The position numbers and the translations under genes are program-made. Under the pieces are notes generated by a model. The model was not told the DNA's origin, searched no databases, and saw nothing but the letters and a program-made list of their open reading frames with translations. From the NCBI GenBank assembly GCA_947650365.1, contig CANTAL010000191.1:372001-436000 (forward strand): a DNA stretch of 64,000 nucleotides, read 5' to 3'. Origin of the DNA: Chamaelirium japonicum (lineage: Eukaryota > Streptophyta > Magnoliopsida > Liliales > Melanthiaceae). This document shows positions 1-64,000 of this stretch, one piece after another (position 1 is the first letter of the stretch; each line of letters starts with the position of its first letter).

Positions 1-879
1 TTCTAATTCATTCGCACGATCTATACTAATTCATTCGTACGTGCTATTCTAATTCCTTCTTGCTAATTTATCCATTCTAATTCATTCGAACGATCCATTC
101 TAATTCATTCGTGTGATCCATTCTAATTCATTCGCACGATCTATTCTAATTCAATCGTACGAATGTATCCATTCTATTTCATTCGTACGATCTATTCTAA
201 TTCACTCGCACGATCCATTCTAATTCTTTCGTACGAGCCATTCTAATTCATTCGTACGAATGTATCCATTCTAATTCATTCATACGATCCAGTCTAATTC
301 ATTCGCACGATCCATTCTAATTTATTCGTACGATCCATTCTAATTTGATAGTATGATCCATTCTAATTCATTCGCACGATCGTACGAAGGAATTAGAATG
401 GATCGTGCGAATTACTTAGAATGGATCGTACGATCGAGTTAGAATGGAATCATACGAATGAATTAGAATGGATTGTATGAATGAATTAGAATGGATCATA
501 CGAATGAATTATAATGGATCGTGCGAATGAATTAGAATGGATCGTACGAATGAATTAGAATGGGTTCGTACGATCCATTCTAATTCATTCGTATGAGCCA
601 TTCTAATTCATTCGTACGAATGTATCCATTCTAAGTCATTCATACGATCCATTCTAATTCATTTGCACGATCCATTCTAATTCATTCGCACGATCCATTC
701 TAATTCATTCGAACGATCCATTCTAATTCATTCGTACGATCCATTCTAATTCATTCGTACGATTCCATTCTAATTCGATAGTATGATCCATTCTAATTCA
801 TTCGTACGATTCCATTCTAATTCAATCGTACGATCCATTCTTATTCATTCGCACGATCTATTCTAATTCATTCGTACGA

Positions 880-3800
880 TCGTGCGATTGAATTAGAATC
901 GATCGTACTATCGAATTTGAATGGATCGTACGAATGAAATAGAATGGATCAGACGAACCCATTCTAATTCATTCGTACGAGCTATTCTAATTCATTTGCA
1001 CGATCCATTCTAATTCAATCGTACGATCCAATCTAATTAATTCGCACGATCTATTCTAATTCATTCGTACGTGCAATTCTAATTCCTTCATACTAATGTA
1101 TCCATTCTAACACATTCGTACGATCCATTCTAATTCATTCGTACAATCCATTATAATTCTTTCGTACGATCGATTCTAATTCATTCGTACGAGCTATTCT
1201 AATTCATTCGTACGACTGTACCCATTCTAATTCATTCGAACGATCCATTCTAATTCATTCATGTAATCTATTCTAATTATTTCGCACAATCCATTCTAAT
1301 TCATTCGTACGATCTATTCTAATTCAATCGTAAGATCCATTCTAATTCATTCGTACGATCCATTCTAATTCCATAGTACGATCCATTCTAATTCATTCAC
1401 ACGATCCATTCTAAATCATTCGTACGTGCTATTCTAATTCCTTCGTACTAATGTATTCATTCTAATTCATTCGAACGATCCATTCTAATTCATTTATGTG
1501 ATTCATTCTAATTCATTCACACGATCTATTCTAATTCATTCGTAAGAATGTATCCATTCTAATTCATTCGCACGATCCATTCTAATTCATTCGAATGAAT
1601 GTATCCATTCTAATTCATTCGTACGATCGATTCTAATTCATTCGCACGATTCATTCTAATTCATTCGTACGATCCATTCTAATTTATTCGCACGATCTAT
1701 TCTAATTCATTCGTACGATTCCATTCTAATTCGATCGTACGATACATTCTAATTCATTCGCACAATCCATTTTAATTCATTCGTACGATGTATCCATTCT
1801 AATTCATTCGTGTGATCCATTCTAATTTATTCGCATGATCTATTCTAATTCATTCGTACGAATGTATCCATTCTAATTCATTCGTACGATCCCTTCTAAT
1901 TCATTCGTACGATCCATTGTAATTCATTCGTGCAAATATATCTATTCTAATTCAATCGTACGATCCATTCTAATTCATTCGTACGATCCATTCTAATTGA
2001 TTCGTACGATCCATTCTAATTTTTTTTTACTAATGTATCCATTCTAATTCATTCGCACGATCTATTCTAATTCATTCGTACGATCCATTCTAATTCGTTC
2101 GCACAATCTATTCTAATTCGTATGTACGATTCCATTCTATTTCAATCGTATGATCCATTCTAATTCATTCGCACGATCCATTCTAATTTATTCGTACGAA
2201 TGTATCCATTCTAATTCATTCGTACGATCCATTCTAATTCATTCGTACGATCCATTCTAATTCATTCGCACGATCTACTCTAATTCATTCGTACGTGCTA
2301 TTCTAATTCCTTCGTACTAATGTATCCATTCTAATTCATTCGAATGATCCATTCTAATTCGTTCGTGTGATTTATTCTAATTCATTCGCACGATCTATTC
2401 AAATTCATTCGTACGAATGTATCCATTCTATTTCATTCGTACGATCTATTCTAATTCATTCGTATCAATGTATCCATTCTAATTCATTCGTACATGCTAT
2501 TCTAATTCATTCGTACGAATGTATCCATTCTAATTCATTCGTACGAATGAATTAGAATAGCTCGTGCGAATGAATTAGAATGGATCGTGCGAATGAATTA
2601 AAATAGATCGTACGAATGAATTAAAATGAATACATTCGTACGAATGAATTAGAATGGATACATTCGTACGAATGAATTAGAAAGGATCGTACGAACCCGT
2701 TCTAATTCATTCGAACGATCCATTCAAATTCATTCGTGTGATCCATTCTAATTCATTCGCCCGATCTATTCTATTTCATTCGTACGAATGTATGCATTCT
2801 AATTCATTTATACGATCCATTCTAATTCTTTCACATGATCCATTCTAATTCATTCGCACGATCCATTCTAATTCATTCGTACGAGCCATTCTAATCTATT
2901 CGTACGAATGTATCCGTTCTAATTTATTCATACGATCCATTCTAATTCATTCGTACGATCCATTCTAATTCATTCGCACGATCCATTCTAATTCTTTCGT
3001 ACAATCCATTCTAATTCATTCGTATGATTCCATTCTAATTCATTCGTACGAGCCATTCTAATTAATTCGTACGAATGTATCCATTCTAATTCATTCGTAC
3101 GATCCATTCTAATTCGATCGTACGATCCATTCTAATTCATTCGCACGATCCATTCTAATTCTTTCGTACGATCGTGCAAATGAAGTAGAATGGATCGTGC
3201 GAATGGATTAGAATGAATCGTACGATCAAATTAGAATGGATCGTACGAATGAATTAGAATGTATACATTCGTACCCTACGATCCATTCTAATTCATTCGT
3301 ACGATCCATTCTAATATATTCGTACGGTCCATTCTAATTCATTCGTATGGTCCATTCTAATTCATTCGCACGATCCATTCTAATTCATTCGTACAAGCCA
3401 TCTTTATTCATTCGTATGAATGTATCCATTCTAATTCATTTGTATAATCCATTCTAATTCTATCGTACGATCTACTCTAATTCATTCGTACGATCCATTC
3501 TAATTCATTCGCATGATCCATTCTAATTCATTCGTACAATCGTGCGAATGAGTTAGAATTGATCGTACGAATGAATTAGAATGGATACATTCGTACGAAT
3601 GAATTAGAATGGCTCGTACGAATGAATTAGAATGGATCGTGCGAATGAATTAGAGTGGATCGTGCGAATGAATTAGAATGGATCGTACAAATGAATTAGA
3701 ATGGATGCATTCTTACAAATGAATTAAAATAGATCGTGCGAATGAATTAGAATGGATTACACGAATGAATTAGACTGGATCGTTCGGATGAATTAGAATG

Positions 3801-3957
3801 GATACATTAGTACGAAGGAATTAGAATTGCACGTATGAATGAATTAGAATAGATCGTGCGAATGAATTAAAATGGATCGTACGAATGAATTAGAACGGAT
3901 CGTGCGAATGAATTAGAATAGGTCGTACGAATGAATTAGAATGGGTTTGTACGATCC
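880..3957. repeat. Large tandem duplication in satellite, copy A
   Basis: Irregular landmarks recur in the same order in copy B (4857-10993). The R island with AGAATCGATCGTACTA at 897 matches 4874. TTGATTCG at 1997 matches 6988 (offset 4991, 217 x 23). The F-to-R junction ATTAGAATAG at 2551 matches 7519 (offset 4968, 216 x 23). The GAACCC junction at 2693 matches 7656, and both are followed by CGCCCGATCTATTC. The ATTCGTACC break near 3267 matches one near 9986, and both are followed shortly by a CGTACGGTCC unit. Copy A is much shorter than copy B. Confidence 0.75.
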
Positions 3958-4856
3958 ATTCTAATTCATTCGTACGAGCTATTAAAATTCATTCGTACGA
4001 ATGTATCCATTCTAATTCATTCGTACGATCCATTCTAATTCATTCGCACGATCCATTCTAATTCGATAGTACGATCCATTCTCCTCGCACGATCGTACGA
4101 TTGAATTAGAATGGATCGTGCGAATGAATTATAATGGATCGTACGATTGAATTAGAATGGAATAGTTTGAATGAATTAGAATGGCTCGTACGAATGAATT
4201 AGAATGGATCGTACGAATGAATTGGAATGGATCGTGCGAATGAATTAGAATGGATCGTACGAATGAATTAGAATGGATCGTGCGAATGAATTAGAATGGC
4301 TCGTACGAATGAATTAGAATAGATAAAAAAAAAAGAATTAGAATGGATCGTGCAAATGAATTAGAATGGATCGTACGAATGAATTAGAATGGATACATTC
4401 ATACGAATGAATTAGAATGGCTCGTATAAATGAATTAGAATGGATCATACGAACCAATTCTTAATCATTCGTACGAGCTATTCTTATTCATTCGCATGAT
4501 CCATTCAAATTCATTCCTACGATCCATTCTAATTCATTCGCACGATCTATTCTAACTCTTTCGCATGATCCATTCTAATTCATCCGTACAATCCATTCTA
4601 ATTCATTCGTACAATTCCATTCTAATTCGATCGTGCTATTCTAATTCCTTTGAACTAATGTATCCATTCTAACTCATTCCAATGATCCATTCTAATTCAT
4701 TCGACTGAACCATTCTTATTCATTCGCAGGATCCATTCTAATTCATTCGCATCATTCGTACGAACCATTCCAATTCATTCGTACGATTCCATTCTAATTC
4801 GATCGTACGATCTATTCTAATTCATTCGCACAATCTATTCTAATTCATTCGTACGA

Positions 4857-7800
4857 ACGAGCGATTGAATTAGAATCGATCGTACTATTGAATTTGAATG
4901 GATTGTACGAATGAATTAGAATGGATCATACGAACCCATTCTAATTCATTACTACGAGCTATTCTAATTCATTCGCACGATCCATTCTAATTCATTCGTA
5001 TGATCCATTCTAATTAATTCGCATGATCTATTTTAATTCATTCGTACGTGCTATTCTAATTCTCTCAAACTAATGTATCAATTCTAATACATTCGTACAA
5101 TCCATTCTAATTCATTCACATGATCCATTCTAATTCTTTCGTACGATCTATTCAAATTCTTTCGTATGAGCTATTCTAATTCATTCGTACGACTATATCC
5201 ATTTTAATTCATTCGATGGATCCATTCTAATTCATTCATGTGATCTATTATAATTCATTCGCATGATCCATTCTAATTCATTTGTACGATCTATTCTAAT
5301 TCAATTGTACGACCATTCTAATTCATTCGTACGATCCATTCTAATTCGATAGTACGATCCATTCTAATTCATTCGCACGATCCATTCTAATTCATTCGTA
5401 CCAGTTATTCTAATTCCTTCGTACTAATGTATGCATTCTAATTCATTCGAATGATCCATTCTAATTCATTCATGTGATCCATTCTAATTCATTCGCACGA
5501 TCTATTCTAATTCATTTGTACGAATGTATCCATTCTAATTCATTCGTACGATCTATTCTAATTCATTCGCACGATCCATTCTAATTCATTCGTACGATCC
5601 ATTCTAATTCATTCGCACGATCCATTCTAATTCATTTGTACGATCCATTCTAATTCACTCGTACGATCCATTCTAATTCATTCGTACGATCTATTCTAAT
5701 TCATTCGTACGATTCTATTCTAATTCGATCGTACGATCCATTCTAATTCATTCGTACGATCTATTCTAATTCATTCGCACAATCCATTCTAGTTCATTCA
5801 TACGATCCATTCTTATTCATTTGCACGATCCATTCTAATTCATTCGTACGATCCATTCTAATTCATTCGCACGATCTATTCTAATTCATTCGTGCGAATG
5901 TATCCATTCTAATTCATTCATATGATCCATTCTAATTCATTCGTGTGATCCATTCTAATTCATTTGCACGATCTAATCTAATTCATTCGTACGAATGTAT
6001 CCATTCTAATTCATTCATACGATCCATTCTAATTTGTTTGCACGATCTATTCTAATTTATTTGCACGATCCATTCTAATTCATTTGTACGATCCATTCTA
6101 ATTCATTCGTACGATCCACTCTATTTCATTCGCACAATCTATTCTAATTCATTCGTACGTGCTATTCTAATTCCTTCATACTAATGTATCCATTCTAATT
6201 CATCCGAACGATCCATCCAAATTCATTCATGTGATCCATTCTAATTCATTCATGTGATCCATCCTAATTTATTCATGTGATCCATTCTAATTCATTCGTA
6301 CGATCCAATCTAATTCATTCATACGTGCTATTCTAATTCCTTCGTATTAATATATCCATTCTAATTCATTCGTACGATCCATTCTAATTCATTCATATGA
6401 TCCATTCTAATTCATTCGCACGATCTATTCTAATTCATTCGTACGAATGTATCCATTCTAATTCATTCATACAATCTATTCTAATTCATTCGTATGATCC
6501 ATTCTAATTCATTCGTACAATCTATTCTAATTTATTCGTACGATCCATTCTAATTCAATCGTACGATCCATTCTAATTCATTCGCACGATCCATTCTAAT
6601 TCATTCGTATGAATGTATCCATTCTAATTCATTCGTACGATCCATTTTAATTCATTCGCACGATCCATTCTAATTCATTCGTACGATCCATTCTAATTCA
6701 TTCGCACGATGTATTCTAATTCATTCATACGATTCCATTATATTTCGATCGTACGATCCATTCTAATACATTCGCACGATCCATTTTAATTCATTCGTAC
6801 GATGTATCCATTCTTATTCATTCGTGTGATTCATTCTAATTCATTCGCACGATCTATTCTAATTCATTCGTACGAATATATCCATTCTAATTCATTCGTA
6901 CAATCCATTCTAATTCATTTGTACGATACATTCTAATTCATTTGTATGAATATATCCATTCTAATTCATTCGTACGATCCATTCTAATTGATTCGTACGA
7001 TCCATTCTAATTTTTTCATACTAATGTATCCATTCTAAATCATTCGCACGATCTATTCTAATTCATTAATACGATCCATTCTAATTCGTTTGCACAATTT
7101 ATTCTAATTCATATGTACGATTCCATTCTAATTCGATCGTATGATCCATTCTAATACATTCACACGATCCATTCTAATTCATTCGTACGAATGTATCCAT
7201 TGTAATTCATTCGTACGATCCATTCTAATTCATTCGAACGATCCATTCTAATTCATTCGTGTGATCCATTCTAATTCATTCGCATGATCTATTCTAATTC
7301 ATTTGTACGAATGTATCCATTCTAATTCTTTCGCACGATCCTATCTAATTCATTCGAGTGATCCATTCTAATTCATTCGTACGAATGTATCAATTCTAAT
7401 TCATTCGCACAATCTATTCTAATTCATTCGTATGAATGTATCCATTCTAATTTATTCATACTTGCTATTCTAATACATTCGTACGAATGTATCCATTCTA
7501 ATTCATACGTACGAATGAATTAGAATAGCTCGTTTGAATGAATTAGAATGAATCGTGCGAATGAATTAGAATGGATCGTACGAATGAATTAGAATAGATA
7601 TATTCGTACGAATGAATTAGAATGGCTCGTACGAATGAATTAGAAAGGATTGTACGAACCCATTCTAATTCATTCGAACGATCCATTCTAATTCATTCGT
7701 GTGATCCATTCTAATTCATTCGCCCGATCTATTCTATTTTATTCGTACGAATATATGCATTCTAATTCATTCGTACGATCCATTCTAATTCATTCGCACG

Positions 7801-10800
7801 ATCCATTCTAATTCATTCGTTTGATCCATTCTAATTCATTCGTGTGATCTATTCTAATTCATTCGTACGCTCCATTCTTATTCATTCGTACGATCCATTC
7901 TAATTCATTCGCATGATCCATTCGTACGAATGTATCCATTCTAATTCATTCGTACGCTCCATTCTAATTCATTCACACGATCTATTCTGACGATCAATTC
8001 TAATTCATTCGTACGATCTATTCTAATTCATTCATACGAATGTATCTATTCTAATTCATTCGTACGAATGTATCTATTCTAATTCATTCGTACGATCTAT
8101 TCTAATTCATTTGTACGATCTATTCTAATTCATTCGTACGAATGTATCCATTCTAATTCAATCGTACGATCCATTCTAATTCATTCGCACGATCCATTCT
8201 AATTCATTCGTACGATCTATTCTAATTCATTCGTACGATTCCATTCTAATTTATTCGTACGAGCCATTCTAATTCATTCGTACGAATGTATCCATTCTTA
8301 TTTATTCGTACGATCCATTCTAATTCACTCGTATAATCCATTCTAATTCATTCGCACGATCCATTCTAATTCTTTCGTACAATCCATTCTAATTCATTCG
8401 TATGATTCCATTCTAATTTGATCGTACGAATGAATTAGAATAGCTCGTACGAATGAATTTGAATGGATCGTGCGAACGAATTAGAATGGATCGTACGAAT
8501 GAATTAGAATGGATACATTCATACGAATGTATTAGAAGGCTCGTACAGATGAATTAGAATGGATCGTATGAATGAATTATAATGGATCGTACGAATAAAT
8601 AAGAGTGGATCATACGAATGAATTAGAATAGATCGTACCAATGAATTAGAATGGATCGTGCGAATGAATTAGAATGGATCATACGATTGAATTAGAATGG
8701 ATACATTTGTACGAATGAATTAGAATAGCTCGTACGAATGACTTAGAATGGATCGTACGAATGAATTAGAATAGATACATTCGTACGAGTGAATTAGAAT
8801 AGATTTGGTGAATGAATTAGAATGGATCACACGAATGAATTAGAATGGATCGTACGAATGAATTAGAATGGATACATTCATACGAATGAATTAGAATAGC
8901 TTGTACGAATAAATTAGAATAGATCATACGAATGAATTAGAATGGATCGTGCGAATGAATTAGAATGGATCGTACGAATGAATTAGAATGGATACATTCG
9001 TACGAATGAATTAGAATAGATTGTGCGAATGAATTAGAATAGATCACACGAATGAATTAGAATGGATCGTTCGAATGAATTAGAATGGATACATTAGTAC
9101 GAAGGAATTATAATGGCATGTACGAACGAATTAGAAAAGATCGTGCGAATGAATTAGAATAGAATGTACGAATGAATTAGAATGGATCGTGCGAATGAAT
9201 TAGAATAGCTCGTACGAATGAATTAGAATGGGTTCATAGGATCCATTCTAATTCATTCGTACGAGCCATTCTAATTCATTCGTACAAATGTATCCATTCT
9301 AATTCATTCGTATGATCCATTCTAATTCATTCCCACGATCTATTCTAATTCATACGTACGTGCTATTCTAATTCCTTCGTACTAATATATCCATTCTAAT
9401 TCATTCGAACGATCCATTCTAATTCATTCGCACGATCCATTCTAATTCATTCGAAAAATCCATTCTAATTCATTCGTACGTATTTATCCATTCTAATTCA
9501 TTACGATCCATTCTAATTCATTCGTACGAGCCATTCTAATTCCTTCGTATGAATGTATCCATTCTAATTCATTCGTACGATCCATTCTAATTCATTCATA
9601 CGATCCATTCTAATTCATTCGTACGAGCCATTCTAATTAATTTGTATGAATGCATCCATTCTAATTCATTCGTACGATCTATTCTAATTCATTCGTACGA
9701 ATGTATCAATTCTAATTCATTCGTACGATCCATTCTAATTCGATCATACGATCCATTCTAATTCATTCGCACGATCCATTCTAATTCTTTCGTACGATCG
9801 TGCGAATGAATTAGAATGGATCGTGCGAATGAATTAGAATGGATCGTACGATTGAATTAGAATGGATCGTACGAATGAATTTGAATGGATACATTTGTAC
9901 GAATGAATTTGAATGGCTCGTACGATTGAATTAGAATGGATCGTACGAATGAATTAGAATGGATCGTACGAATGAATTAGAATGGATAGATTCGTACCTT
10001 ACAATCCATTCTAATTCATTCGTACGATCCATTCTATTTTATTCGTACGATCCATTCTAATTCATTCGTACGGTCCATTCTAATTCATTCGTATGAGCCA
10101 TTCTAATTCATTCGTACGAATGTATCCATTCTAATTCATTCGTATAATCCATTCTAATTCTCTCATACGATCTATTCTAATTCATTCGTACGATCCATTC
10201 TAATTCATTCGCACGATCCATTCTAATTCATTCGTACGATCCATTGTAATTCATTCGTACGAGCTATTCTAATTCATTCATACGAATGTAACCATTCTAA
10301 TTCATTCGTATGATCCATTCTAATTCATTCGTGTGATCCATTCTAATTCATTCGCACGATCTATTCTAGTTCATTCATACGAATGTATCTATTTGTAATC
10401 ATTCGAACGATGCTTTCTAATTCATTCGCACGATCCATTCTAATTCATTCGTACGATCCATTCTAATTCGATAGTACGATCCATTCTAATTCATTCGAAT
10501 GATCGTACGAATGTATTAAAATGGATCGTGCGAATGAATTAGAATGGATTGTACGATCGAATTAGAATGGAATCGTACGAATGAATTAGAATGGATCGTA
10601 CGAATGAATTAGAATGGATCGTGCTGCGAATGAGTTAGAATTCATCGTATGAATGAATTAGAATGGATACATCCGTACGAATGAATTAGAATGGCTCATA
10701 CGAATGAATTAGAATGGATCGTGCGAATGAATTAGAATGGATCATGCGAATGAATTAGAATGGATCATACGAATGAATTAGAATGGATACATTCTTACGA

Positions 10801-10993
10801 ATGAATTAGAAGAGATCGTGCGAATGAATTAGAATGGATCACACGAATGAATTAAAATGGATAGTTCGGATGAATTAGAATGGATACATTAGTACGAAGG
10901 AATTAGAATAGCACGTACGAATGAATTAGAATAGATCGTGCGAATGAATTAAAATAGCTCGTACAAAGGAATTAGAATAGGTTTGTACGATCC
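4857..10993. repeat. Large tandem duplication in satellite, copy B (expanded)
   Basis: This is the second copy of the landmark series in 880-3957. It holds extra material, notably the R block at about 8426-9238. The terminal R-block motif (GATCGTTCG unit, then ACATTAGTACGAAGG) appears at about 3778-3823 in copy A and twice here, near 9066 and near 10860, so a further internal duplication is likely. Ends are approximate. Confidence 0.7.
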
Positions 10994-13004
10994 ATTCTAA
11001 TTCATTCGTACGATTCATTCTAATTCCTTCGTACGATCCATTCTAATTCATTCGCACGATCCATTCTAATTCATTCGCACAAATTTATCCATTCTAATTC
11101 ATTCGTACGATCCATTCTAATTCATTCGTACGATCCATTCTAATTCATTCGCACAAATGTATCCATTCTGAATCATTCGTTCGATCCATTCTAATTCATT
11201 CGCATAAATATATCCATTCTAATTCATTCGTACGATCCATTCTAATTCATTCGCACGATCCATTCTAATTCATTCACACAAATGTATCCATTCTAATTCA
11301 TTCGTACAATCCATTCTAATTCATTCACATGATCCATTCTAATTCATTCGTACGATCCATTCTAATTCATTTGTACGATCCATTCTAATTCATTCGCACG
11401 ATTGCATCCATTCTAATTTATTCGTACGATTCATTCTAATTCATTCTCACGAATGTATCATACGAATGAATTATAATGAATTGTACGAATGGATTAGAAT
11501 GGATCGTACGAATAAATTAGAATGGATCGTACGAATGCATTATAATGGATACATTCGTGCGAATGAATTAGAAAGGATCATACGAATGAATTAGAATGGA
11601 TCGTACGAATGAATTAGAATGGATACATTCGAATTCATTCGTACGATCCATTCTAATTCATTCGTACGATCCATTCTAATCCATTCGTACAATCCATTCT
11701 AATTCATTCGTATGATACATTCGTGAGAATGAATTAGAATGGATCGTACGAATAAATTAGAATGGATACATTCGTGCGAATGAATTAGAATGGATCGTAC
11801 AAATGAATTAGAATGGATCGTCCGAATGAATTAGAATGGATCATGCGAATGAATTAGAATGGATTGTACGAATGAATTAGAATGGATACATTTGTGCGAA
11901 TGAATTAGAATGGATCGTGCGAATGAATTAGAATGGATCGTACGAATGGATTAGAATGGATCGTACGAATGAATTAGAATGGATCGTACAAATGAATTAG
12001 AATGGATATATTCATGCAAATGAATTAGAATGGATACATACATTCATGCGAATGAATTTGAATGGATCGTACGAATGAATTAGAATAGATCGTAGGAATG
12101 AATTAGAATGGATACATTCGAGGGAATGAATTAGAGTAGATCGTAGGAATGAATTAGAATGGATCATACGAATAAATTAGAATGGATCGTGCGAATGAAT
12201 TAGAATGGATTGTATGAATGAATTAGAATGGATACATTTGTGCGAATGAATTAGAATGGATCGGACGAATGAATTAGAATGGATCGTACGATCCATTCTA
12301 ATTCGTTTGTATGATCCATTCTAATTCATTCGTACGATCCATTCTAATCCATTCGTACGATCCATTCTAATCCATTCGTACGATCCATTCTAATTCATTT
12401 GTATGATCCATTCTAATTCATTCTCACAAATGTAACCTTTCTAATTCATTTGTACGATCCATTCTAATTCATTCGTACGATCCATTCTAATCCATTCGTA
12501 CGATCCATTCTAATTCATTCGCACGAATGTAACCATTCTAATTCATTCGTACGATCCATTCTAATTCATTCCTACGATCCATTCTAATTCATTCGCACGA
12601 ATGTATCCATTCTAATTCATTTGCACGATCCATTCTAATTCATTCCTATGATCCATTCTCATTCATTCGTATGATACATTCATACGACAGAATTAGAATG
12701 GATTGTACGAATGAATTAGAATTGATCATATGAATGAATTAGAATGGATCGTACGAATGAATTAGAATGGATCGTGCGAATGAATTAGAATGGATCGTAC
12801 GAATGAATTAGAATGGATATATTTGAACGAATAAATTTGAATGGATCGTACGAACGAATTAGAATGGATCGTACGAATGCATTAGAATGCATCGTACGAA
12901 TGAATTAGAATGGATACATTCGAGCGAATGAATTAGAATGGATCGTGCGATGAATTAGAATGGATCATACAAATAAATTAGAATGGATTCTAATCCATTC
13001 GTAC

Positions 13005-13205
13005 GATCCATTCTAATCTATTCTAATTCATTCGCACAAATGTATCCATTCTAATTCATTCTAACGAATGTAACCTTTCTAATTCATTTGTATGATCCAT
13101 TCTAATGCATTCGTACGATTCATTCTAATCCATTCGTACGATCCATTCTAATCCATTCATTCGTACGAATGAATTAGAATGGTTACATTCGTGCGAATGA
13201 ATTAG
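13005..13205. repeat. Dispersed satellite segment 1, left copy (with F-to-R junction)
   Basis: This stretch aligns without gaps to 38629-38829 at a constant offset of 25624, checked at CTATTCTAATTC (13018/38642) and GGTTACATTC (13181/38805). Shared irregularities include the truncated CTAATCTATTC unit, the GCATTCG unit and the CCATTCATTCGTACGAATG polarity junction, so this is a copied segment and not chance similarity of units. Confidence 0.85.
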
Positions 13206-13775
13206 AATAAATCGTACGAATGAATTAGAATGGATTGTACGAATGAATTAGAATGGATCGTGCGAATAAATTAGAATGGATCGTACGAATGAATTAGAAT
13301 GGATCGTAGGAATGAATTAGAATGGATCGTACGAATGAATTAGAATGGTTACATTCGTGCGAATGAATTAGAATGGATTGTACGAATGGATTAGAATGGA
13401 TCGTACGAATGGATTAGAATGGATCGTATGAATGAATTAGAATGGATCGTACAAATGAATTAGAAAGGTTACATTTGTGAGAATGAATTAGAATGGATCG
13501 TACGAATGATTAGAATGGATCGTACGAATGGATTAAATGGATACATTCGAGCGAATGAATTAGAATGGATACATTTGTGCGAATATGGATCATGTGAATC
13601 AATTAGAATGGATCGTACGAATGAATTAGAATGGATCGTATGAATGAATTAGAATGGATACATTCGTGCGATTGAATTAGAATGGATCGGACGAATGAAT
13701 TAGAATGGATCATACGAATGAATTAGAATGGATCGTGCGAATGAATTAGAATGGATCGTACGAATGAATTAGAAT

Positions 13776-13975
13776 GGATCGTGCAAATGAATTAGAATGA
13801 ATCGTACGAATGCATTAGAATGGATCGTACGAATGAATTAGAATGAATCGTACGATCCATTCAAATTCATTCGTCCGATCCATTCTAATTCATTCGCACG
13901 AATGTATCCATTCTAATTCATTCGTACAATCCATTCTAATTCATTCGCACGATCCATTCTAATTCATTCGCACAA
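13776..13975. repeat. Dispersed satellite segment 2, left copy
   Basis: It aligns gap-free with about 30692-30891 (offset 16916) across GTGCAAATG, the TGCATTAGAA unit (13811/30727), the GAATCGTACGATCC R-to-F junction and the TCGTCCGATCC unit (13871/30787). The two copies lie on either side of the retroelement in the same orientation. Confidence 0.85.
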
Positions 13976-14340
13976 ATTAGAATGGATCATACGAATGAAT
14001 TAGAATGGATTGTGCGAACGAATTAGAACGGATTGTGCGAATGAATTAGAATGGATCATATGAATGAATTAGAATGGATCGTGCAAATGAATTAGAATGG
14101 ATACATTCGTGCGAATGAATTAGAACGGATCGTACGAATGAATTAGACTGGATCGTACGAATAAATTAGAATGGACACATTCATACGAATGAATTAGAAT
14201 GGATCGTACGAATGAATTAGAATGGATCGTATGAATGGATTAGAATGGATTGTACGAATGAATTAGAATGGATACATTTGTGCGAATGGATTAGAATGCA
14301 TTGTACGAATGAATTAGAATAGATACATTTGTGCGAATGA

Positions 14341-14493: not shown

Positions 14494-14521
14494 TGTGGAC
14501 GCGGAAAAAGCGCGGGTCGTC

Positions 14522-16646: not shown

Positions 16647-16654
16647 CAGGGCCG

Positions 16655-47920: not shown

Positions 47921-47929
47921 GAATGAATT

Positions 47930-50600: not shown

Positions 50601-53600
50601 ATTCATTCGTACGAATGAATTAGAATAGATCGTGCGAATGAATTAGAATGGATCATATGAATGAATTAGAATAGATCGTAGGAATGAATTAGAATGGATC
50701 AAACGAATGAATTAGAATGGATCGTACGAATGAATTAGAATGGATCATACGAATGAATTAGAATGGATCGTGCGAATGAACTAGAATGGATCGTACGAAT
50801 GAATTAGAATGGATCATACAAAATGGATTAGAATGGATCGTACGAATGGATTAGAATGGATTGTACGAATGGATTAGAATGGATCGTACGAATGGATTAG
50901 AATGGATCGTACGAATTAGAATGGATCGTACGAATGAATTAAAATGGATACATTCATGACTGAATTAAAAATTTATTCGTACGATCCATTCAAATTCAAT
51001 CGTATGATCCATTCTAATTCATTCGCACGATCCATTCTAATTCATTCGTACGATCCATTCTAATTCATTCGTACGATTCATTCTAATTCATTCGTATGAT
51101 CCATTCTAATTAATTATACGATTCATTCTAATTCATTCGTACGATCCATTCTAATTCATTTGTATGATCCATTCTAATTCATTCCTATGATCCATTCTAT
51201 TTCATTCGTACGATCCATTATAATTCAATCGCACGATCCATTCTAATTCATTTGTACGAATGTATCCATTCTAATTCATTCGCACGATCCATTCTAATGC
51301 ATTCGTACGATTCATTCTAATTCATTCGCACGATCCATTCTAATTCATTCGTACGATCCATTCTAATTCATTCGTACAATCCATTCTAATTCATTCTTAT
51401 GATCCATTCTAATTCATTCGCACGATCCATTCAAATTCATTCGCACGATCCATTCTAATTCATTCGTACGATACATTCTAATTCATTCATACGATCTATT
51501 CTAATTCATTTGCACGAATGTATCCATTCTAATTCATTTGTATGATCCATTCTAATTCAGTCGCACGAATGTAACCATTCTAATTCATTCGTACGATCCA
51601 TTCTTATTCATTCATACGATCTATTCTAATTCGTTCGCACAATCCATTCTAATTCAATCGTACGATCCATTCTAATTCATTCGTCCGATCAAATCTAACC
51701 TTTCTAATTCATTTGTACGATCCATTCAAATTCATTCGCAAATTAGAATGGATCGTACGAATGAATTAGAGTGGATCGTGCGAATGAATTAGGATAGATC
51801 GTACGATCCATCCTAATTCATTCGTACGATCCATTCTAATCCATTCGTACGATCCATTCTAATCCATTCGTATGATCCATTCTAACTCATTCGTACGGTC
51901 CATTCTAATTCATTCTAATTCATTCGTACGATCCATTCTAACTCATTCGTACGATCCATTCTAATTCATTCGCCCGATCCATTCTAATTCATTCGCACGA
52001 TCCATTCTAATTCATTCGTACGATCTATTCTAATTCATTCGCACAAATGTATCCATTTTAATTCATTCGTACGATCCATTCTAATTCATTCGTACGATCT
52101 AATTCATTCGTACGATCCATTCTAATTCATTCGTACGATCGATTATAATTCATTCGCACGATCCATTCTAATTCATTTGTATGATCGATTCTAATTCATT
52201 CGTATGATCCATTCTAATTTATTCGTTCAAATGTATCCATTTTAATTCGTTCGTACGATCCATTCTAATTCATTCGTACGATCCATTCTAATTCATTCGT
52301 TCGATCCATTCTAATTCATTTGTACGATCCATTCTAATTCATTCGCACAAATGTATCTATTTTAATTCATTCGTACGATCCATTCTAATTTATTCATACG
52401 ATCCATTCTAATTCATTCGCACGATCCATTCTAATTCATTCGTACGATCCATTCTAATTCACTCGCATGAATTAGAATGGATACATTTGTGCGAATGAAT
52501 TAGAAGGGATTGTACGAATGAATTTGAATGGTTACATTCGTGCGAATGAATTAGAATGGATCGTACGAATGGATTAGAATGGATCGTACGAATAAATTAG
52601 AATGGATACATTCGAGCGAATGAATTAGATTGGATCGTACGAATGGATTAGAATGGATCGTACGATTGAATTAGAATGGTTACATTCGTGCGAATGAATT
52701 AGAATGGATCGTATGAATGGATTAGAATGGATCGTACGAATGGATTAGAATGGATCGTACGAATGAATTAGAATGGATCATACAAATGAATTAGAAAGGT
52801 TACATTTGTGAGAATGAATTAGAATGGATCGTACGAATGAATTAGAATGGATCGTATGAACGAATTAGAATGGATCGTATGAACGAATTAGAATCGATCG
52901 TGCAAATGAATTAGAACGGATACATTCGTGCGAATGAATTAGAATGGATCGTAGGAATGAATTAGAATGGATCGTACGAATGAATTAGAATGGTTACATT
53001 CGTGCGAATGAATTAGAATGGATCATACGAATGAATTAGAATGGATCGTACGAATGAATTAGAATGGTTACATTCGTGTGAATGAATAAGAATGGATCGT
53101 ACGAATGGATTAGAATGGATCGTACAAATGGATTAGAATGGATCGTACGAATGAATTAGAATGGATCGTACAAATGAATTAGAAAGGTTACATTTGTGAG
53201 AATGAATTAGAATGGATCGTACGAATGAATTATAATGGATCATAGGAATGAATTAGAATGGATCATGCAAATGAATTAGAATGGATACATTCGTGCGAAT
53301 GAATTAGAATGGATCGTAGGAATGAATTAGAATGGATCGTACGAATGAATTAGAATGGTTACATTCGTGCGAATGAATTAGAATGGATCATACGAATGAA
53401 TTAGAATGGATCGTGCGAATGAATTAGAATTGATCATACGAATGAATTAGAATGGATCATAGGAATGAATTAGAATGGATCGTATGAATGAATTAGAATG
53501 GTTACATTCGTGCGAACGAGTTAGAATGGATCGTACGAATGGTTTAGAATGGATCGTACGAATGGATTAGAATGGATCGTACGAATGAATTAGAATGGAT

Positions 53601-56600
53601 ACATTCGAGCGAATGAATTAGAATGGATCGTACGAACCATTCTTATTCATTCATACGATCCATTCTAATTCATTCGCATAATCCATTCTAATTCATTTAT
53701 ACGATCCATTCTAATTCATTCGTATGATCCATTCTAACTCATTCGGTGGATCCATTCTAATTCATTCGTACGATCCATTCTAATTCATTCGTACGACCCA
53801 TTCTAATTTATTCGTACGATCCATTCTAGTTCATTCGTACGATCTATTCTAATTCATTCGCACGAATGTAACCATTCTAATTCATTCGTACGATTCATTC
53901 TAATTCATTCGTATGAGCTATTCTAATTCATTCGTATGATCCATTCTAATGCATTCGTACGATTCATTCTAATTCATTCGCATAAATATATCCATTCTAA
54001 TTCATTCGTACGATCCATTCTAATTCATTCGCACGATCCATTCTAATTTATTCGCACAAATGTATCCATTGTAATTCATTCGTACGATCCATTCTTATTC
54101 ATTCATACGATCCATTCTAATTCATTTGCACGATCCATTCTAATTCATTCCTATGATTCATTCTAATTCATTCGTACGATCCATTCTAATTCATTCGCTC
54201 GAATGTATCCATTCTAATTCATTCGTAAGATCCATTCTAATTCATTCGTATGATCCATTCTAATTCATTCTCACGAATGTAACCTTTCTAATTCATTTGT
54301 AGGATCCATTCTAATCCATTCGTACGATCCATTCTAATCCATTCGTACGATCCATTCTAATCCATTCATACGATCCATTCTAATTCATTTGTATGATCCA
54401 TTCTAATTCATTCACTCGAATATATCCATTTGTAATTCATTCGTTCGATCCATTCTAATTCATTCGTATGATCCATTCTAATCCATTCGTACGATCCATT
54501 CTAATCCATTCGTACGATCTATTCAAATTCATTTGTCCGATCCATTCTAATTCATTCGCACGAATGTATCCATTCTAATTCAGTCGTACAATCCATTCCA
54601 ATTCATTCGCACGATCAATTCTAATTCATTCGTATGGTCCATTCTAATTCATTCCTACGATCTATTCTAATTCATTCGCTCGAATGTATCCATTCTAAAT
54701 CATTCGTACAATCCATTCTAATTCATTCACACTATCCATTCTAATTCATTCGTATGATCCATTCTAATTCATTCCTACGATCTATTCTAATTCATTCGCT
54801 CGAATGTATCCATTCTAATTCATTCGTACGATCCATTCTAATTCATTCGTATGATCCATTCTAACTCATTCGGTGGATCCATTCTAATTCATTCGTACGA
54901 TCCATTCTAATTCATTCGCACGATCTATTCTAATTTATTCGTACGATCCATTCTAATTCATTCGCACGATCCATTCTAATTCATTCGTACGATCCATTCT
55001 AATTCATTCGCACGAATGTAACCATTCTAATTCATTCGTACGATCCATTCTAATTCATTCCTACGATCCATTCTAATTCATTCGCACGAATGTATCCATT
55101 CTAATTCATTTGCACTATCCATTCTAATTCATTCCTATGATCCATTCTAATTCATTCATATGATCCATTCTAATTCATTCGCTCGAATGTATCCATTCAA
55201 ATTCATTCGTACGATCCATTCTAATTCGTTCATATGATCCATTCAAATTCATTCGCATGATCCATTCTAATTCATTCGTACGATTCATTCTAATTCATTC
55301 TCACGAATGTAACCTTTCTAATTCATTTGTATGATCCATTCAAATTCATTCGTACGATCCATTCTAAACCATTCGTACGATCCATTCTAATCCATTCGTA
55401 CGATCCATTCTAATCCATTCGTACGATCCATTCTAATTCATACTCACCAATGTAACCTTTCTAATTCACTTGTACGATCCATTCTAATTCATTCGTACGA
55501 TCCATTCTAATTTATTCGTACGATCCATTCTAATTTATTCGTTCAAATATATCCATTCTAATTCATTCGTACGATCCATTCTAGTTTATTTGCACGATCC
55601 ATTCTAATTCATTCGCACGAATTTATCCATTCTAATCCATTCTAATTCATCGCACGAATTCGTTCTAATTCATTCGCACGAATGTATCCATTCTAATTCA
55701 TTCGTGTGAATGAATTAGAACGGATTCGTGCGATGAATTAGAATGGATCGTACGAATGAATTAGAATGGATCGTACGAATAAATTGGAATGGATCGTACG
55801 AATGAATTAGAATGGATCGTACAAATGAATTAGAAAGGTTACATTTGTGAGAATGAATTAGAATGGATCGTACGAATGGATTAGAATGGATCGTACGAAT
55901 GGATTAGAATGGATCGTACGAATGAATTAGAATGGATCGTACGAATGAATTAGAATGGATCATACAAATGAATTCGAAAGGTTACATTCGTGAGAATGAA
56001 TTAGAATGGATCGTACGAATGAATTAGAATGGATCATGCGAATGAATTTGAATGGATCGTACGAATGAATAAGAATGGATCGTACGAATGAATTAGAATG
56101 GATCATACGAATGTATCCATTCTAATTCATTCGTACGATCCATTCTAATTCGTTCATATGATCCATTCTAATTCGTTCGTACGATCCATTCTAATTCGTT
56201 CGTACGATCCATTCTAATTCATTCGCACAATCCATTCTAATTCAATCGCACGATCCATTCGAATTCTTTCATATGATCCATTCTACATCATTCGCACGAA
56301 TGTATCCATTCTAGTTCATTCGTACGCTCCATTCTAATTCATTCGTACGCTCCATTTTTATTTATCGCACAAATGTATCCATTCTAATTCATTCGTATGA
56401 TCCATTCTAATTCATTCGCACGATCGATTCTAATTCTTTCGTACGATCCGTTCTAATTCATTCGCACGATCCATTCTAATTCTTTCGTACGATCCATTCT
56501 AATTCATTCGCACGATCCATTCTAATTCATTCGTACAATCCATTCTAATTCATTCGTACGATCCATTCTAATTCATTCGCACTATCCATTCTAATTCATT

Positions 56601-57349
56601 CGCACTATCCATTCTATTTCATTCGTACGATCCATTCTAATTCATTCATACGATCTATTCTAATTCATTCGCACGTATGTATCCATTCTAATTCATTCGC
56701 ACAATCCAATCTAATTCAAACGTACGATCCATTCTAATTCATTCGCATGATGTATTCTAATTCATTCGTACGATCCATTCCAATTCATTTGTACGATCCA
56801 TTTTAATTCATTCGCATGATCCATTCTAATTCATTCGTATGATACATTCATACGGTTGAATTAGAATGGATTGTACTAATGAATTAGAATTGATCATACG
56901 AATGAATTAGAATGTATCATACAAATGAATTAGAATGGATCGTGCGAATGAATTAGAATGGATCGTACAAATGAATTAGAATGGATCGTACGATCCATTT
57001 ATTTCATTCGTACGATCCATTCTAACGCATGATGTATTCTAATTCATTCGTACGATCCATTCTAATTTATTTGCACGAATATACGATCCATTCTAATTTA
57101 TTCGCAAAAATGTATCCATTCTAATTCATTCGTACAATCCATTCCAATTTATTAGTACAAATGTATCATTCTAATTAATTCGTACGATCCATTCTAATTC
57201 ATTCGTACGATTCATTCTAATTCATTCGCATGATCCATTCTAATTCATTTGTACGATCCATTCTAATTCATTCGCACGAATGTATCCATTCTAATTCATT
57301 CGTACAATCCATTCTAATTCATTCGCACGATCCATTCTAATTCATTCGT

Positions 57350-57547
57350 ATGATCCATTCTAATTCATTCCTACGATCTATTCTAATTCATTCGCTCGAA
57401 TGTATCCATTCTAATTCATCCGTTCGATCCATTCTAATTCATTCGTACGATCCATTCAAATTCATTCGCATGATCCATTCTAATTCATTCGTACGATCCA
57501 TTCTAATTCATTCTCACGAATGTAACCTTTCTAATTCATTTGTATGA
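57350..57547 (+). repeat. Higher-order satellite module, plus copy 2
   Basis: Close copy of 44629-44859 with the same sequence of variant units, 12.7 kb downstream. Confidence 0.8.
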
Positions 57548-59850
57548 TCCATTCTAATTCATTCGTACGATCCATTCTAATTCATTCGTACGATCCATTC
57601 TAATCCATTCGTACTATCCATTCTAATCCATTCGTACGATGCATTCTAATTCATTCTCACAAATGTAACCATTCTAATTCATTCGTATGATCCATTCTAA
57701 TTCATTCCTACGATCCATTCTAATTCATTCGTACGATCCATTCAAATTCATTCGCATGATCCATTCTAATTCATTCGTACAATCCATTCTAATTCATTCT
57801 CACGAATGTAACCATTCTAATTCATTCGTACGATTCATTCTAATTCATTCCTACGATCCATTCTAATTCATTCGTACGATCCATTCAAATTCATTCGCAT
57901 GATCTATTCTAATTCATTCGTACGATCCATTCTAATTCATTCATTCGTACGATCCATTCTAATCCATTCGTACGATCCATTCTAATCCATTCATATGATC
58001 CATTCTAATCCATTCGTACGATCTCGTACGATCCATTCTAATTCATTCGTACGATCCATTCTAATCCATAAATACAATCCATTCTAATTCATTCGTATGG
58101 TACATTCGTGAGAATGAATTAGAATGGATCGTACGAATAAATTAGAATGGATACATTCGTGCGAATGAATTAGAATGGATCGTACAAATGAATTAGAATG
58201 GATCGTATGAATGAATTAGAATGGATCATGCGAATGAATTAGAATAGATTGTACGAATGAATTAGAATGGATACATTTGTGCGAATGAATTAGAATGGAT
58301 CGTGCGAAATAATTAGAATGGATCGTACGAATGAATTAGCATGGATATATTTATGCGAATGAATTAGAATGGATCGAACGAATGAATTAGAATGGATACA
58401 TTTGTGCGAATGAATTAAAATGGATCGTACGAATGAATTAGAATGGATCGTACGAATGAATTAGAATGGATACATTTGTGCGAATGAATTAGAATGGATC
58501 GTGCAAATGAATTAGAATGGGTCGTACGAATGAATAAGAATGGATCGTACGAACGACTTAGAATGGATCGTACGAATGAATTAGAATGGATCGTACGAAT
58601 GAATTAGAATGGATACATTCGAGCGAATGAATTAAAATGGATCGTACGAATGAATTAGAATGGATCATAGGAATGAATTAGAATGGATCGTGCAAATGAA
58701 TTAGAATGGATACATTCGTGCGAATGAATTAGAATGGATCGTGGGAATGAATTAGAATGGATCGTACGAATGAATTAGAATGGTTACATTCGTGTGAATG
58801 AATTAGAATGGATCGTACGAATGGATTAGAATGGATCGTACGAATGGATTATAATGGATCGTAAGAACAAATTAGAATGGATCGTACAAATGAATTAGAA
58901 AGGTTACATTTGTGAGAATGAATTTGAATGGATCGTACGAATGAATTAGAATGGATCGTACGAATGGATTACAATGGATCGTACGAATGAATTAGAATGG
59001 ATTGTGCGAATGAATTAGAATGGATCGTATGAATGAATTAGAATGGTTACAATTGTGCGAATGAATTAGAATGGATCGAACGAATGGTTTAGAATGGATC
59101 GTACGAATGGATTAGAATGGATCGTACGAATGAATTAGAATGGATACATTCGAGCGAATGAATTAGAATGGATCGTACGAATTAATTAGAATGGATCGTA
59201 CGAATGGATTTGAATGGATCGTACGAATGGATTAGAATGGATCGTACGAATGAATTAGAATGGATCGTACGAACGAATTAGAATGGATCGTACGAATGAA
59301 TTAGAATGGATCATAGGAATGAATTAGAACGGATCGTGCGAATGAATTAGAATGGATCTTACGAATGAATTAGAATGGATACATTCATACGAATGAATTA
59401 GAATGGATTGTATGAATGAATTAGAATGGATCGTGCGAATGAATTTGAATGGATAGTGCGAATGAATTAGAATTGATCATACGAATGAATTAGAAAGGAT
59501 CGTACGAATGAATTAGAATGGATCGTGCGAATGAGTTAGAATGGAATTGTACGAATGAATTGGAATGGATACATTCGAGCGAATGAATTAGAATGGATCA
59601 TATGAATGAATTACAATGGATACATTTGTGCGAATGAATTTGAATGGATTGCACGAATTGAATTAGAATGGATAATACGAATGAATTAGAATGGATCATG
59701 CGAATGAATTAGAATTGATCATACGAATGAATTAGAATGGATCGTACGAATGAATTAGAATGGATCATATGAAAGAATTAGAATGGATCGTGCGAATGAA
59801 TTAGAAAGGATCGTACGAATGAATTAGAATGGATATATTCGTGCGAATGA

Positions 59851-60003
59851 ATTAGATTGCATCGTACGAATAAATTTGAATGGAATGTACGAATGAATTA
59901 GAATGGATCGTACGAATGAATTAGAATGGATCATGCGAATGATTTAGAATAGATCGTACGAATGAATTAGAATGGATCGTACGAATAAATTAGAATGGAT
60001 CGT
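59851..60003. repeat. Paralogue of the retroelement's left flank
   Basis: Gap-free match to 14341-14493. Here the R array continues uninterrupted past the point where the LTR begins in the other copy. Confidence 0.8.
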
Positions 60004-63000
60004 GCGAATGTGTGAGAATGAATTAGAATGGATCGTACGAATGAATTAGAATGGATCATAGGAATGAATTAGAATGGATCGTGCAAATGAATTAGAATGA
60101 ATCGTACGAATGGATTAGAATGGTTCGTACGAATGAATTAGAATGGATCATACAAATGAATTAGAAAGGTTACATTCGTGAGAATGAATTAGAATAGATC
60201 GTATGAATGAATTAGAATGGATCGTGCGAATGAATTAGAATGGATCGTACGAACGACCTAGAATGGATCGTATGAACGAATTAGAATGGATCATATGAAC
60301 GAATTAGAATGGATCGTACGAATGAATTAGAATGGATACATTCGAGCGAATGAATTAGAATAGATCGTACGAATGAATTAGAATGGATCATAGCAATGAA
60401 TTCGAATGGATCGTGCAAATGAATTAGAATGGATACATTCGTGTGAATGAATTAGAATGGATCGTAGGAATGAAATAGAATGGATTGTATGAATGAATTA
60501 GAATGGTTACATTCGTGCGAATGAATTAGAATGGATCGTACGAATGGATTAGAATGGATCGTACGAATGGATTAGAATGGATCGTACGAATGGATTAGAA
60601 TGGATCGTACGAATGAATTAGAATGGATCATGCGAATGAATTTGAATGGATTGTACGAATGAATTAGAATGGATCATGCGAATGAATTTGAATGGATTGT
60701 ACGAATGAATTAGAATGGATCAAACCAATGAATTAGAATGGATACATTCGAGCGAATGAATTAGAATAGATCGTAGGAATCAGTTAGAATGGATCATACG
60801 AATGAATTAGAATGGATCGTGCAAATGAATTAGAATGGATCGGACGAATGAATTAGAATGGATCGTACAAATGAATTAGAATGGATCGTGCGAATGAATT
60901 AGAATGAACCGTACGAATGCATTAGAATGGATACATTCGTGCGAATGAATTAGAATGGATCGTACGAATGAATTAGAATGGATCGTGCAAATGAATTAGA
61001 ATGGATCGTACGAATGAATTAGAATGGATCGTGCAAATGAATTAGAATGCATCGTACGAATGAATTAGAATGGATACATTTGTGTGAATGAATTAGAATG
61101 GATCGTACGAATGAATTAGAATGGATCGTACGAATGAATTAGAATGGATACATTTGTACGAATGAATTAGAACGGATCGTGCGAAAGAATTAGAATGGAT
61201 CGTACGAATGAATTATAATGAATCGTACGAATGAATTAGAATGGATCTTGCGATTAAATTAGAATAGATCGTACGAATGAATTAGAATGGATACATTCGT
61301 GCGAATGAACTAGAATGGATACATACATTCATGCGAATGAATTAGAATGGATCGTATGAATGAGTTAGAATGGATCGTATGAATGAATTAGAATGGATTG
61401 CATGAATGAATTAGAATGGATCATACGAATGAATTGGAATGGATCGTACGAATGAATTAGAATGGTTACATTCATGCAAATGAATTAGAATGGATTGTAC
61501 GAATGAATTAGAATGGATCGTACGAATGAATTCGAATGGATCATTCGTATGAATGAATTAGAATGGATCGTACGAATGAATTAGAATGGATCGTACGAAT
61601 AAATTAGAATGGATCGTACGAATAAATTAGAATTGATACATTTGTGTGAATGAATTAGAATGGATCGTACAAATGAATTAGAATAGATCGTATGAATGAA
61701 TTAGAATGGATCGTACGAATGAATTAGAATGGATCGTACGAATGAATTAGAATGAATCGTACGAATGCATTAGAATGGATCATACGAATGAATTAGAATA
61801 GTTACATTCGTACGAATGAATTAGAATGAATTAGAATGGATCGCATGAATGAATTAGAATGGATCGTACGAATGAATTAGAATGGATACATTCGTGCGAA
61901 TGAATTAGAATAGATCGGACGAATGAATTAGAATGGATCATAGCAATGAATTCGAATGGATCGTGCGAATGAATTAGAATGGATCGTACGAATGAATTAG
62001 AATGGTTCATACAAATGAATTAGAAAGGTTACATTCGTGAGAATGAATTAGAATGGATAGTACGAATGAATTAGAATGGATCATGCGAATGAATTTGAAT
62101 GGATTGTACGAATGAATTAGAATGGATCGTACGATCCATTCTAATTCATTCTCACAAATGTATCCATTCTAATTCATTCGAATGATCCATTCTAATTCAT
62201 TCGCACGATCCATTCTAATTCATTCGCACGAATATATCCATTCTAATTCATTCGTACGATCCATTCTAATTTATTCATACGATTCATTCTAATTCATTCG
62301 CACGATCCATTCTAATAAATTCATACGATCCATTCTAATTCATTCGTACGATCTATTCTAATTCATTCGCACGAATGTAACCATTCTAATTCATTCGTAC
62401 GATTCATTCTAATTCATTCGTATGATCCATTCAAACTCATTCATACGATCCATTCTAATTCATTCGTACGATCCATTCTAATTCATTTGTACGATCCATT
62501 CTAATTCATTCGCACAAATGTATCCATTTTAATTCATTCGTACGATCCATTCTAATTTATTCATACGATCCATTCTAATTCATTCGCACGATCCATTCTA
62601 ATTCATTCGTACGATCCATTCTAATTCATTCGCACGAATGTATCCATTCTAATTTATTCGTCCGATCCATTCTAATTCATTCGTACAATGCGTTCTAATC
62701 CATTCGTACGATCCATTCTAATCCATTCGTACGATCCATTCTAATTCATTTGTACGAATGAATCCATTCTAATTCATTAGTACGATCCATTCTAATTCAT
62801 TCTTATATTCCATTCTAATTCATTCGCACGAATGTATCCATTCTAATTCATTCGTACAATCCATTCTAATTCATTCGTACGATCCATTCTAATTCATTCC
62901 TATGATCCATTCGCACAAATGTATCCATTCTAATTCATTTGTACGATCCATTCTAATTCATTCGTACGATCCATTCTAATTCATTCGTACGATCCATTCT

Positions 63001-64000
63001 AATTCATTCGCACAAATGTATCCATTCTAATTCATTCGTACGATCTATTCTAATTCATTCGCACGATCCATTCTAATTCATTCGTACGATCCATTCTAAT
63101 TCATTCGCACGATCCATTCTAATTCATTCGTACGATCCATTCTAATTCATTCGCACGAATGTATCCATTCTAATTCATTCGTACGATCCATTCTAATTCA
63201 TTCGCACAATACATTTGTGCGAATGAATTAGAATGGATCGTACGAATGGATTAGAATGGATCGTACGAATGAATTAGAATGGATCGTACGAATAAATTAA
63301 AAAGGTTACATTTGTGAGAATGAATTAGAATGGATCGTACGAATGAATTATAATGGATCGTACGAATGGATTAGAATTGATCGTACGAATGAATTAGAAT
63401 GGATCGAACGAATGAATTAGAATGGATACATTCGAGCGAATGAATTAGAATAGATCGTAGGAATGAATTAGAATGGATCGTACGAATGAATTAGAATGGA
63501 TACATTCGTGCGAATGAATTAGAATGGATTGTACGAATGAATTAGAATGGATCATAGGAATGAATTAGAATGGATCGTGCAAATGAATTAGAATGGATAC
63601 ATTCGTGCGAATGAATTAGAATGCATCGTAGGAATGAATTAGAATGGATCGTACGAATGAATTAGAATGGTTACATTCGTGCGAATGAATTAGAATGGAT
63701 CGTACGAATGGATTAGAATGGATCGTACGAATGAATTAGAATGGATCGTACAAATGAATTAGAAAGGTTACATTTGTGAGAATGAATTAGAATGGATCGT
63801 ACGAATGAATTAGAATGGATCGCACGAATGGATTAGAATGGATCGTACGAATGAATTAGAATGGATCGTACGAATGAATTAGAATGGATCGCACGAATGA
63901 ATTAGAATGGATCATGCGAATGAATTAGAATGGATTGTACGAATGAATTAGAATGGATACATTTGTGCGAATGAATTAGAATGGACCGTGCGAATGAATT

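Follow-up and report, generated by a model that had tools for sequence, protein, structure and literature searches.

Polarity switches in a 23-/28-bp satellite of Chamaelirium japonicum: preference for short palindromes and copying of junction-bearing blocks

One question raised by the 64,000-bp stretch of Chamaelirium japonicum DNA considered here (the window; contig CANTAL010000191.1, or C203, G000:C203:372001-436000, free of N) is how a tandem satellite of 23- and 28-bp units comes to reverse its orientation dozens of times, and whether the points of reversal are spread at random along the unit. We find that they are not: the junctions favour the palindrome CGTACG in both directions of switching and GATC in one, and many of the switches in the window are copies of one another. 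The reading to which we give slightly better than an even chance is that antiparallel repeats were joined at short shared palindromes, the resulting blocks then being amplified in both orientations. The patchwork polarity itself has been published, while an explanation of its cause was not found in the accessible parts of that literature, and junctions that favour palindromes make the cause testable.

The satellite makes up 48.6 kb of the window as 23/28-bp units segmented by a strand-aware hidden Markov model (HMM), in a left block (1..14491) and a right block (29860..64000), each containing both orientations. Its period is 23, Tandem Repeats Finder returning a 23-bp unit with the consensus TTCTAATTCATTCGTACGATCCA, in which the word TTCGTACGA is present; in 345 of 2039 window monomers a 5-bp insert, AATGT after CGTACG, produces a 28-bp monomer. 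This is very probably the Chio1/Chio2 centromere repeat of Chionographis japonica, a species that NCBI files under Chamaelirium japonicum, because the 23/28-bp monomers, the word TTCGTACGA and the mixed orientation agree with the published description, the match being to that description and not to a letter-for-letter monomer. In the available text of that description (Kuo et al. 2023, PMC10264360), Chio1 has 23 bp and Chio2 28 bp, a difference of 5 bp to which a 1-bp substitution is added, the monomers carry dyad symmetries, the arrays are a mixture of forward and reverse and the repeats underlie CENH3 units; in the same text we found no difference from the satellite described here. A second source, likewise available in part (PMC12722358), calls the orientation of Chio 'frequently alternating', contrasts it with the consistently oriented arrays of the satellite Chama, and reports that the two satellites have TTCGTACGA in common. 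The satellite and its mixed polarity are already known, and of the view of an initial sequence-only reading that such switching is unusual for a satellite, what stands is that its degree is unusual. Rfam gave no match in the window at gathering scores.

The switches were located by a Viterbi path through a model comprising both orientations, the 23/28-bp units and a background state, which places 66 of them in the window, 34 from forward to reverse (F-to-R) and 32 from reverse to forward (R-to-F), all within 1-14491 and 29860-64000, and assigns 24,850 satellite bases to the forward and 23,782 to the reverse orientation. A simpler HMM also called 66, and four other settings called 65-68; at a fifth setting, with a switch probability of 1e-9, no direct F/R switch was returned, probably because a path via the background state is then cheaper. 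When all tracts of the window satellite were turned forward no switch was called, and a Markov shuffle of 20 kb yielded no satellite. The dozens of switches proposed by the sequence-only reading are borne out by these counts, whereas the extent that it gave the satellite, 1-64000, takes in positions 14494-29859, where a 15.4-kb long terminal repeat (LTR) element and not satellite is found.

The window taken together with twenty 10-kb stretches of contigs C1 and C203 contains 261 switches in 219,327 bp of satellite, or 1.19 per kb, with a median interior segment of about 500 bp. Blind 1.5-kb probes on other contigs contained satellite in 14 of 20 cases and a switch in 11 of those 14; extension by 5 kb of six of the 11 switch-bearing probes gave 63 called and 62 counted switches in 38,203 bp of satellite, a density of 1.62 per kb that is biased upwards, the six contigs having been picked after their probes had shown switches. 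One switch of the 261 and one of the 63 were dropped as too close to a locus end. Frequent switching is also seen in the chromosome-sized scaffolds C1, C2, C3, C6 and C7. The arrays differ in character, with 22-24 switches per 10 kb in three C203 stretches (L024, L025, L028) against 1-14 in the C1 stretches (L009-L023); the word CATTCGTACGAATG occurs 17-21 times per 10 kb in the former and 0-3 times in the latter.

The sequence-only reading had placed the switches at palindromes latent in the unit and had asked that the fraction at CGTACG or AATT centres be compared with random breakpoints. Each junction (131 F-to-R and 129 R-to-F, from the window and the C1/C203 stretches) was accordingly compared with all 23 possible mirror centres at an edit distance of no more than 3 over 26 bases, artificial joins of random tracts serving as the null. 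To limit the effect of copying, junctions whose 240-bp surroundings were at least 90% alike were merged and one arbitrary member of each group was kept, reducing 260 junctions to 129 lineages (69 F-to-R, 60 R-to-F). In raw counts CGTACG lies at 43 of 131 F-to-R and 59 of 129 R-to-F junctions and GATC at 23 of 131 F-to-R junctions. After collapse CGTACG is found in 19 of 69 F-to-R lineages, compared with 7.8% (234/3000) of null joins (p 9e-7), and in 23 of 60 R-to-F lineages, compared with 6.5% (196/2997; p 1e-12), while GATC is found in 18 of 69 F-to-R lineages, compared with 3.8% (114/3000; p 7e-11), these p values resting on the independence of lineages, an assumption that may fail where there was old copying. 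The junctions are thus non-random, CGTACG exceeding the null in both directions, and GATC, which the sequence-only reading had left out of its list of junctions, is enriched at F-to-R switches. No enrichment was seen for GATC at R-to-F switches (2/60 lineages, null 7.3%) or for AATT in either direction (F-to-R 1/69, null 3.9%; R-to-F 0/60, null 1.9%), so that the proposal of latent palindromes holds for CGTACG but not for AATT. In the six other contigs, taken uncollapsed, CGTACG again occupies 9 of 31 F-to-R and 8 of 31 R-to-F junctions (p 4e-4 and 7e-4) and GATC 4 of 31 F-to-R junctions (p 0.03); the five of 31 R-to-F junctions at GATC (p 0.07) run counter to the asymmetry of the first sample, four of the five being on C3. 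The commonest junction classes, again at an edit distance of no more than 3, account for 62 of the 131 F-to-R and 71 of the 129 R-to-F junctions, a generous measure, the null joins not having been so clustered.

The same contrast is apparent in exact 22-mer words counted over the whole assembly of 1,518,659,071 bp, where copies are included and the figures are not counts of events. The CGTACG words number 4,823 (F-to-R) and 5,655 (R-to-F) and the GATC F-to-R word 4,339, compared with only 73 for the AATT R-to-F word and 28 for a control F-to-R mirror at another phase (after column 10), although the half-sites of this control are commoner. Half-sites per monomer in the satellite sample amount to 0.332 for CGTACG F-to-R, 0.419 for CGTACG R-to-F, 0.289 for GATC F-to-R, 0.293 for AATT R-to-F and 0.617 for the control; supply therefore fails to account for the contrast. 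Some of the contrast is nevertheless expected, because with more shared bases more breakpoints give one and the same product: by our own count nine for CGTACG (or 15, in the F-to-R direction, with Chio2 as the forward unit), five for GATC and AATT and three for the control. After division by the squared supply and the number of breakpoints, again by our own arithmetic, CGTACG and GATC still exceed the AATT word and the control approximately 17 to 420-fold. The near-equality of the two CGTACG products is what joining at one shared word predicts. The GATC F-to-R word, CATTCGTACGATCGTACGAATG, is about as common as the CGTACG junctions despite having only four shared bases. The control word recurs at spacings of about 1.1 kb and 9 kb on C25 (around 2.0426-2.0449 and 2.4056-2.4079 Mb) and C10 (around 72.776-72.794 Mb), which points to switch-containing higher-order repeats on the kilobase scale.

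Shared bases at the joins point in the same direction for one class of junction. Four or more are present at 43% of all F-to-R junctions and in 45% of F-to-R lineages, compared with 6% of random joins. The excess is firm in this direction but weak in the other, R-to-F, in which a one-base shift is seen at many CGTACG junctions, among them the asymmetric junction GGATCGTACGAACCCATTCTAATTC, which serves below as a marked junction. The claim that nothing is lost at the junctions does not hold in general, since 20 of the 66 window junctions are without any base common to both consensus orientations. Seamless mirror centres, with at most one mismatch in the inner pairs, are no commoner than in random joins (37/131 F-to-R and 20/129 R-to-F, compared with 23% and 24%), and a second mirror measure gives a slight excess only (82/131 compared with 342/600 F-to-R; 76/129 compared with 290/600 R-to-F); seamless mirror junctions do not, on these figures, constitute a special class.

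Nor are the arms of the junctions the near-perfect kilobase inverted repeats that had been envisaged. Over 150 bp at the 66 window junctions the mean identity of arms in cis is 0.822, compared with 0.819 between arms of unlinked junctions (best 0.951 and 0.965), and over 400 bp at 109 junctions it is 0.850 compared with 0.842, with seven of the 109 at 0.90 or more (best 0.943 in cis, 0.960 unlinked). Arms in cis resemble each other no more closely than arms from unlinked junctions do; they are ordinary diverged repeats, and recent fold-back duplication was rejected as a general origin. By geometry, any strand switch in a 23-bp tandem repeat should have a dyad centre within about 6 bp, and hairpin potential therefore shows little by itself. 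Opposite arrays do form hairpin-capable junctions, but the arms are not perfect palindromes on the kilobase scale, which corrects a tempting idea.

Copying is directly visible in the window. Kilobase blocks bearing switches recur in direct and inverted orientation in 45025..51739, where self-BLAST matches 45083-46893 to 48097-49907 directly at 93.6% and 45025-46021 to 51739-50745 inverted at 94.8%; sorting the 66 window switches by identity over 200 bp gives 49 groups at 90% and 32 at 85%. The marked junction GGATCGTACGAACCCATTCTAATTC, R-to-F and at 552..576 on the minus strand of the window (C203:372552-372576), belongs to a set of 25 identical genomic copies, divided 11 to 14 between the strands and clustered on C9, C39, C45, C85 and C203. 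Its spacings on C39 (around 1.95-2.00 Mb) and C45 (around 1.82-1.87 Mb) nearly match, and these may be two haplotypes of one locus or a duplicated block. In pairwise alignment 162 of 260 switches have a relative at 90% or more over 240 bp. From this it does not follow that copying affects switches more than the rest of the satellite: 163 of 206 uniform tracts have such a relative, in a control that is not strictly comparable because uniform tracts can slide by whole monomers. Sharing of rare 16-mers is highest with the tracts two and four steps away, which are of the same polarity (0.045 and 0.038), lower with those one, three and five steps away (0.030, 0.019 and 0.018) and lowest with other loci (0.007), a pattern that joint duplication of paired opposite tracts would produce.

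These observations would fit a process in which antiparallel units are joined at words that read alike in both orientations, above all at TCGTACGA, a palindrome of 8 bp. Joining forward to reverse at this word would give TTCATTCGTACGAATGAA, and the converse join GAATGGATCGTACGATCCATTC; the joining would probably proceed by annealing or template switching while a break is repaired or a fork restarted. Switch-bearing blocks, hundreds to thousands of bases long, would then be copied, locally and in both orientations, thereby multiplying the founder junctions, whose independent number we can only infer, into the present patchwork. An analogous route is available in yeast, where single-strand annealing between inverted repeats after resection gives fold-backs and inverted dimers (PMC6103520, in the part available); the repeats in that system are 2 kb long, whereas here the words are of 8 bp in a diverged satellite, and the mechanism is proposed by analogy only.

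Several results weigh against joining at shared palindromes followed by block amplification. GATC is favoured in the F-to-R and not in the R-to-F direction, and no preference is seen for AATT, although it offers the same number of shared bases; the length of the shared word alone therefore does not explain the choice of site. At R-to-F junctions four or more shared bases occur in 16% of all cases but in only 6.7% of lineages, compared with 2.8% of random joins, and three or more in 8.3% of lineages compared with 6.0%. The collapse into lineages counts founder copies that have diverged by more than 10% as separate. CGTACG junctions stand at both ends of 49 of 235 segments, with 51.2 expected, so that a reciprocal inversion with both ends at CGTACG has left no footprint. 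Chio2, which contains a 14-bp palindrome, is not enriched at 12-60 bp from switches (138/1023 compared with 1230/7901, monomers less than 12 bp from a switch being left out), and its role as a local hot spot or an aborted switch is unsupported. Finally, Chama has TTCGTACGA and yet, in the available text, uniform arrays (PMC12722358), and the palindrome is therefore not sufficient.

The closest competitor to joining at palindromes is founder amplification alone, according to which a few ancestral switches happened to fall at CGTACG or GATC and were spread by duplication and conversion, the apparent site preference being itself a product of copying. We regard this account as doubtful, though with a substantial chance of being right. 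The 25 copies of the marked junction and the relatives at 90% or more of most switches speak for it, even the rare control junction forms local series on C25 and C10, on C1 and C203 junctions with a common signature have a slightly higher mean similarity than those of different signature (0.826 compared with 0.811), and old copies are indistinguishable from new events at the present divergence. On the other hand the preference survives collapse at 90% and is seen again in six further contigs, the genome contains the two CGTACG products in nearly equal numbers, and the similarity of same-signature pairs across contigs is only slightly above background. A bolder idea than the joining that we favour is that TCGTACGA, with GATC in one direction, is a recurrent strand-exchange hot spot at which the array continually re-randomises its polarity, perhaps by way of cruciforms or of a nuclease or recombinase recognising the word, the uniform sister lineage being without the trigger; we consider this rather unlikely.

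Selection might instead retain the switches, if inverted arrays or cruciforms help CENH3 chromatin, as the dyad-symmetry view would have it. Chio repeats do underlie CENH3 units and carry dyad symmetries (PMC10264360), and conserved inversion sites are described in putative (peri)centromeric satellites of the beetle Tribolium madens (PMC13081366), in the accessible portions of both papers; yet the arms here show no greater symmetry than do arms taken from unlinked junctions, and the centromeres of Chamaelirium luteum work with consistently oriented arrays (PMC12722358, available in part), which makes this alternative improbable. An artefact of assembly or library, by fold-back chimeric reads or collapsed repeats, is very improbable indeed. 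Satellites are hard to assemble and the window lies on a 567-kb contig and not on a chromosome-sized scaffold, but fold-back chimeras would be expected to have near-identical arms, whereas the best cis arms reach 0.943 over 400 bp and 0.951 over 150 bp, when unlinked arms reach 0.965; moreover, switching is also frequent in the five chromosome-sized scaffolds, and the published assembly was, according to its available text, built from HiFi reads (PMC10264360).

How far other satellites resemble this one can be judged from the accessible parts of two sources. Chama of Chamaelirium luteum is likewise centromeric and rich in dyad symmetries and has the 9-bp word TTCGTACGA, and differs in its 60-bp monomer and consistently oriented arrays (PMC12722358). 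The macro-dyad symmetries of TmSat1 and TmSat2 in Tribolium madens, with inversions confirmed on raw HiFi reads, are alike in their inverted subarrays and recurrent conserved inversion sites, and differ in that the arrays consist predominantly of two subarrays of kilobase length, whose inversion points carry diverged subunits (PMC13081366). In Chio there are about 1.2 switches per kb, often at the palindromes of the ordinary unit; recurrent conserved inversion sites are present here as well, in the junction classes and in the 25 copies of GGATCGTACGAACCCATTCTAATTC, while the median segment of about 500 bp departs from two long opposite subarrays. In the open-access literature, as far as its text was available, we found neither a breakpoint analysis of Chio arrays nor a published counterpart of the details described here: breakpoints that favour CGTACG and GATC, two products in nearly equal numbers and a marked junction that has been copied.

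Individual junctions of the window illustrate these classes. CGTACG-centred F-to-R switches lie at 2536..2549 (CATTCGTACGAATG, within a 32-bp exact palindrome), 31047..31060, 47912..47925 and 50604..50617, and CGTACG-centred R-to-F switches at 12281..12294 (GGATCGTACGATCC) and at 62124..62137, the latter within a 42-bp exact palindrome, the longest listed at the window switches. In the HMM junction list an F-to-R switch of the GATC-centred class is found at 369..390, with further cases near 3173 and 9799. The sites named by the sequence-only reading, six of CATTCGTACGAATG and one of TTCTAATTAGAA, all fall at F-to-R switches and within 13 bp of the positions it gave. Its generalisations from them fared less well: six copies of CATTCGTACGAATG are at switches, but 24 of the 30 in the window are elsewhere, the word being mostly the 28-bp monomer and rejected as a marker of switches; all three copies each of GGATCGTACGATCC and GAATCGTACGATCC, proposed as common at R-to-F switches, do lie at such switches, but together they account for six of 32; and TTCTAATTAGAA, proposed as a common centre, marks at 40538..40549 the sole AATT-centred F-to-R switch of the window, in a class that is not enriched.

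The LTR retrotransposon-like element (14494..29859, minus strand) sits between a reverse tract and a forward tract of satellite. By self-BLAST its terminal repeats span 14494-16955 and 27141-29859, with an identity of 95-96% in both of the long pieces that align, and a minus-strand open reading frame of 2088 amino acids (20814-27080) matches Pfam Retrotrans_gag (E 7.3e-13), no other Pfam match being found at E 0.001 in a scan limited to that reading frame of the element. No target-site duplication is seen, the flanking five bases being different (ATCAT, GTACG); the placing of the element could be due to insertion at a switch, or to an inversion that had one of its breakpoints there. Within the terminal repeats a 70-bp unit is tandemly repeated, at 15480-16013 and 28123-28936, the right array being longer than the left.

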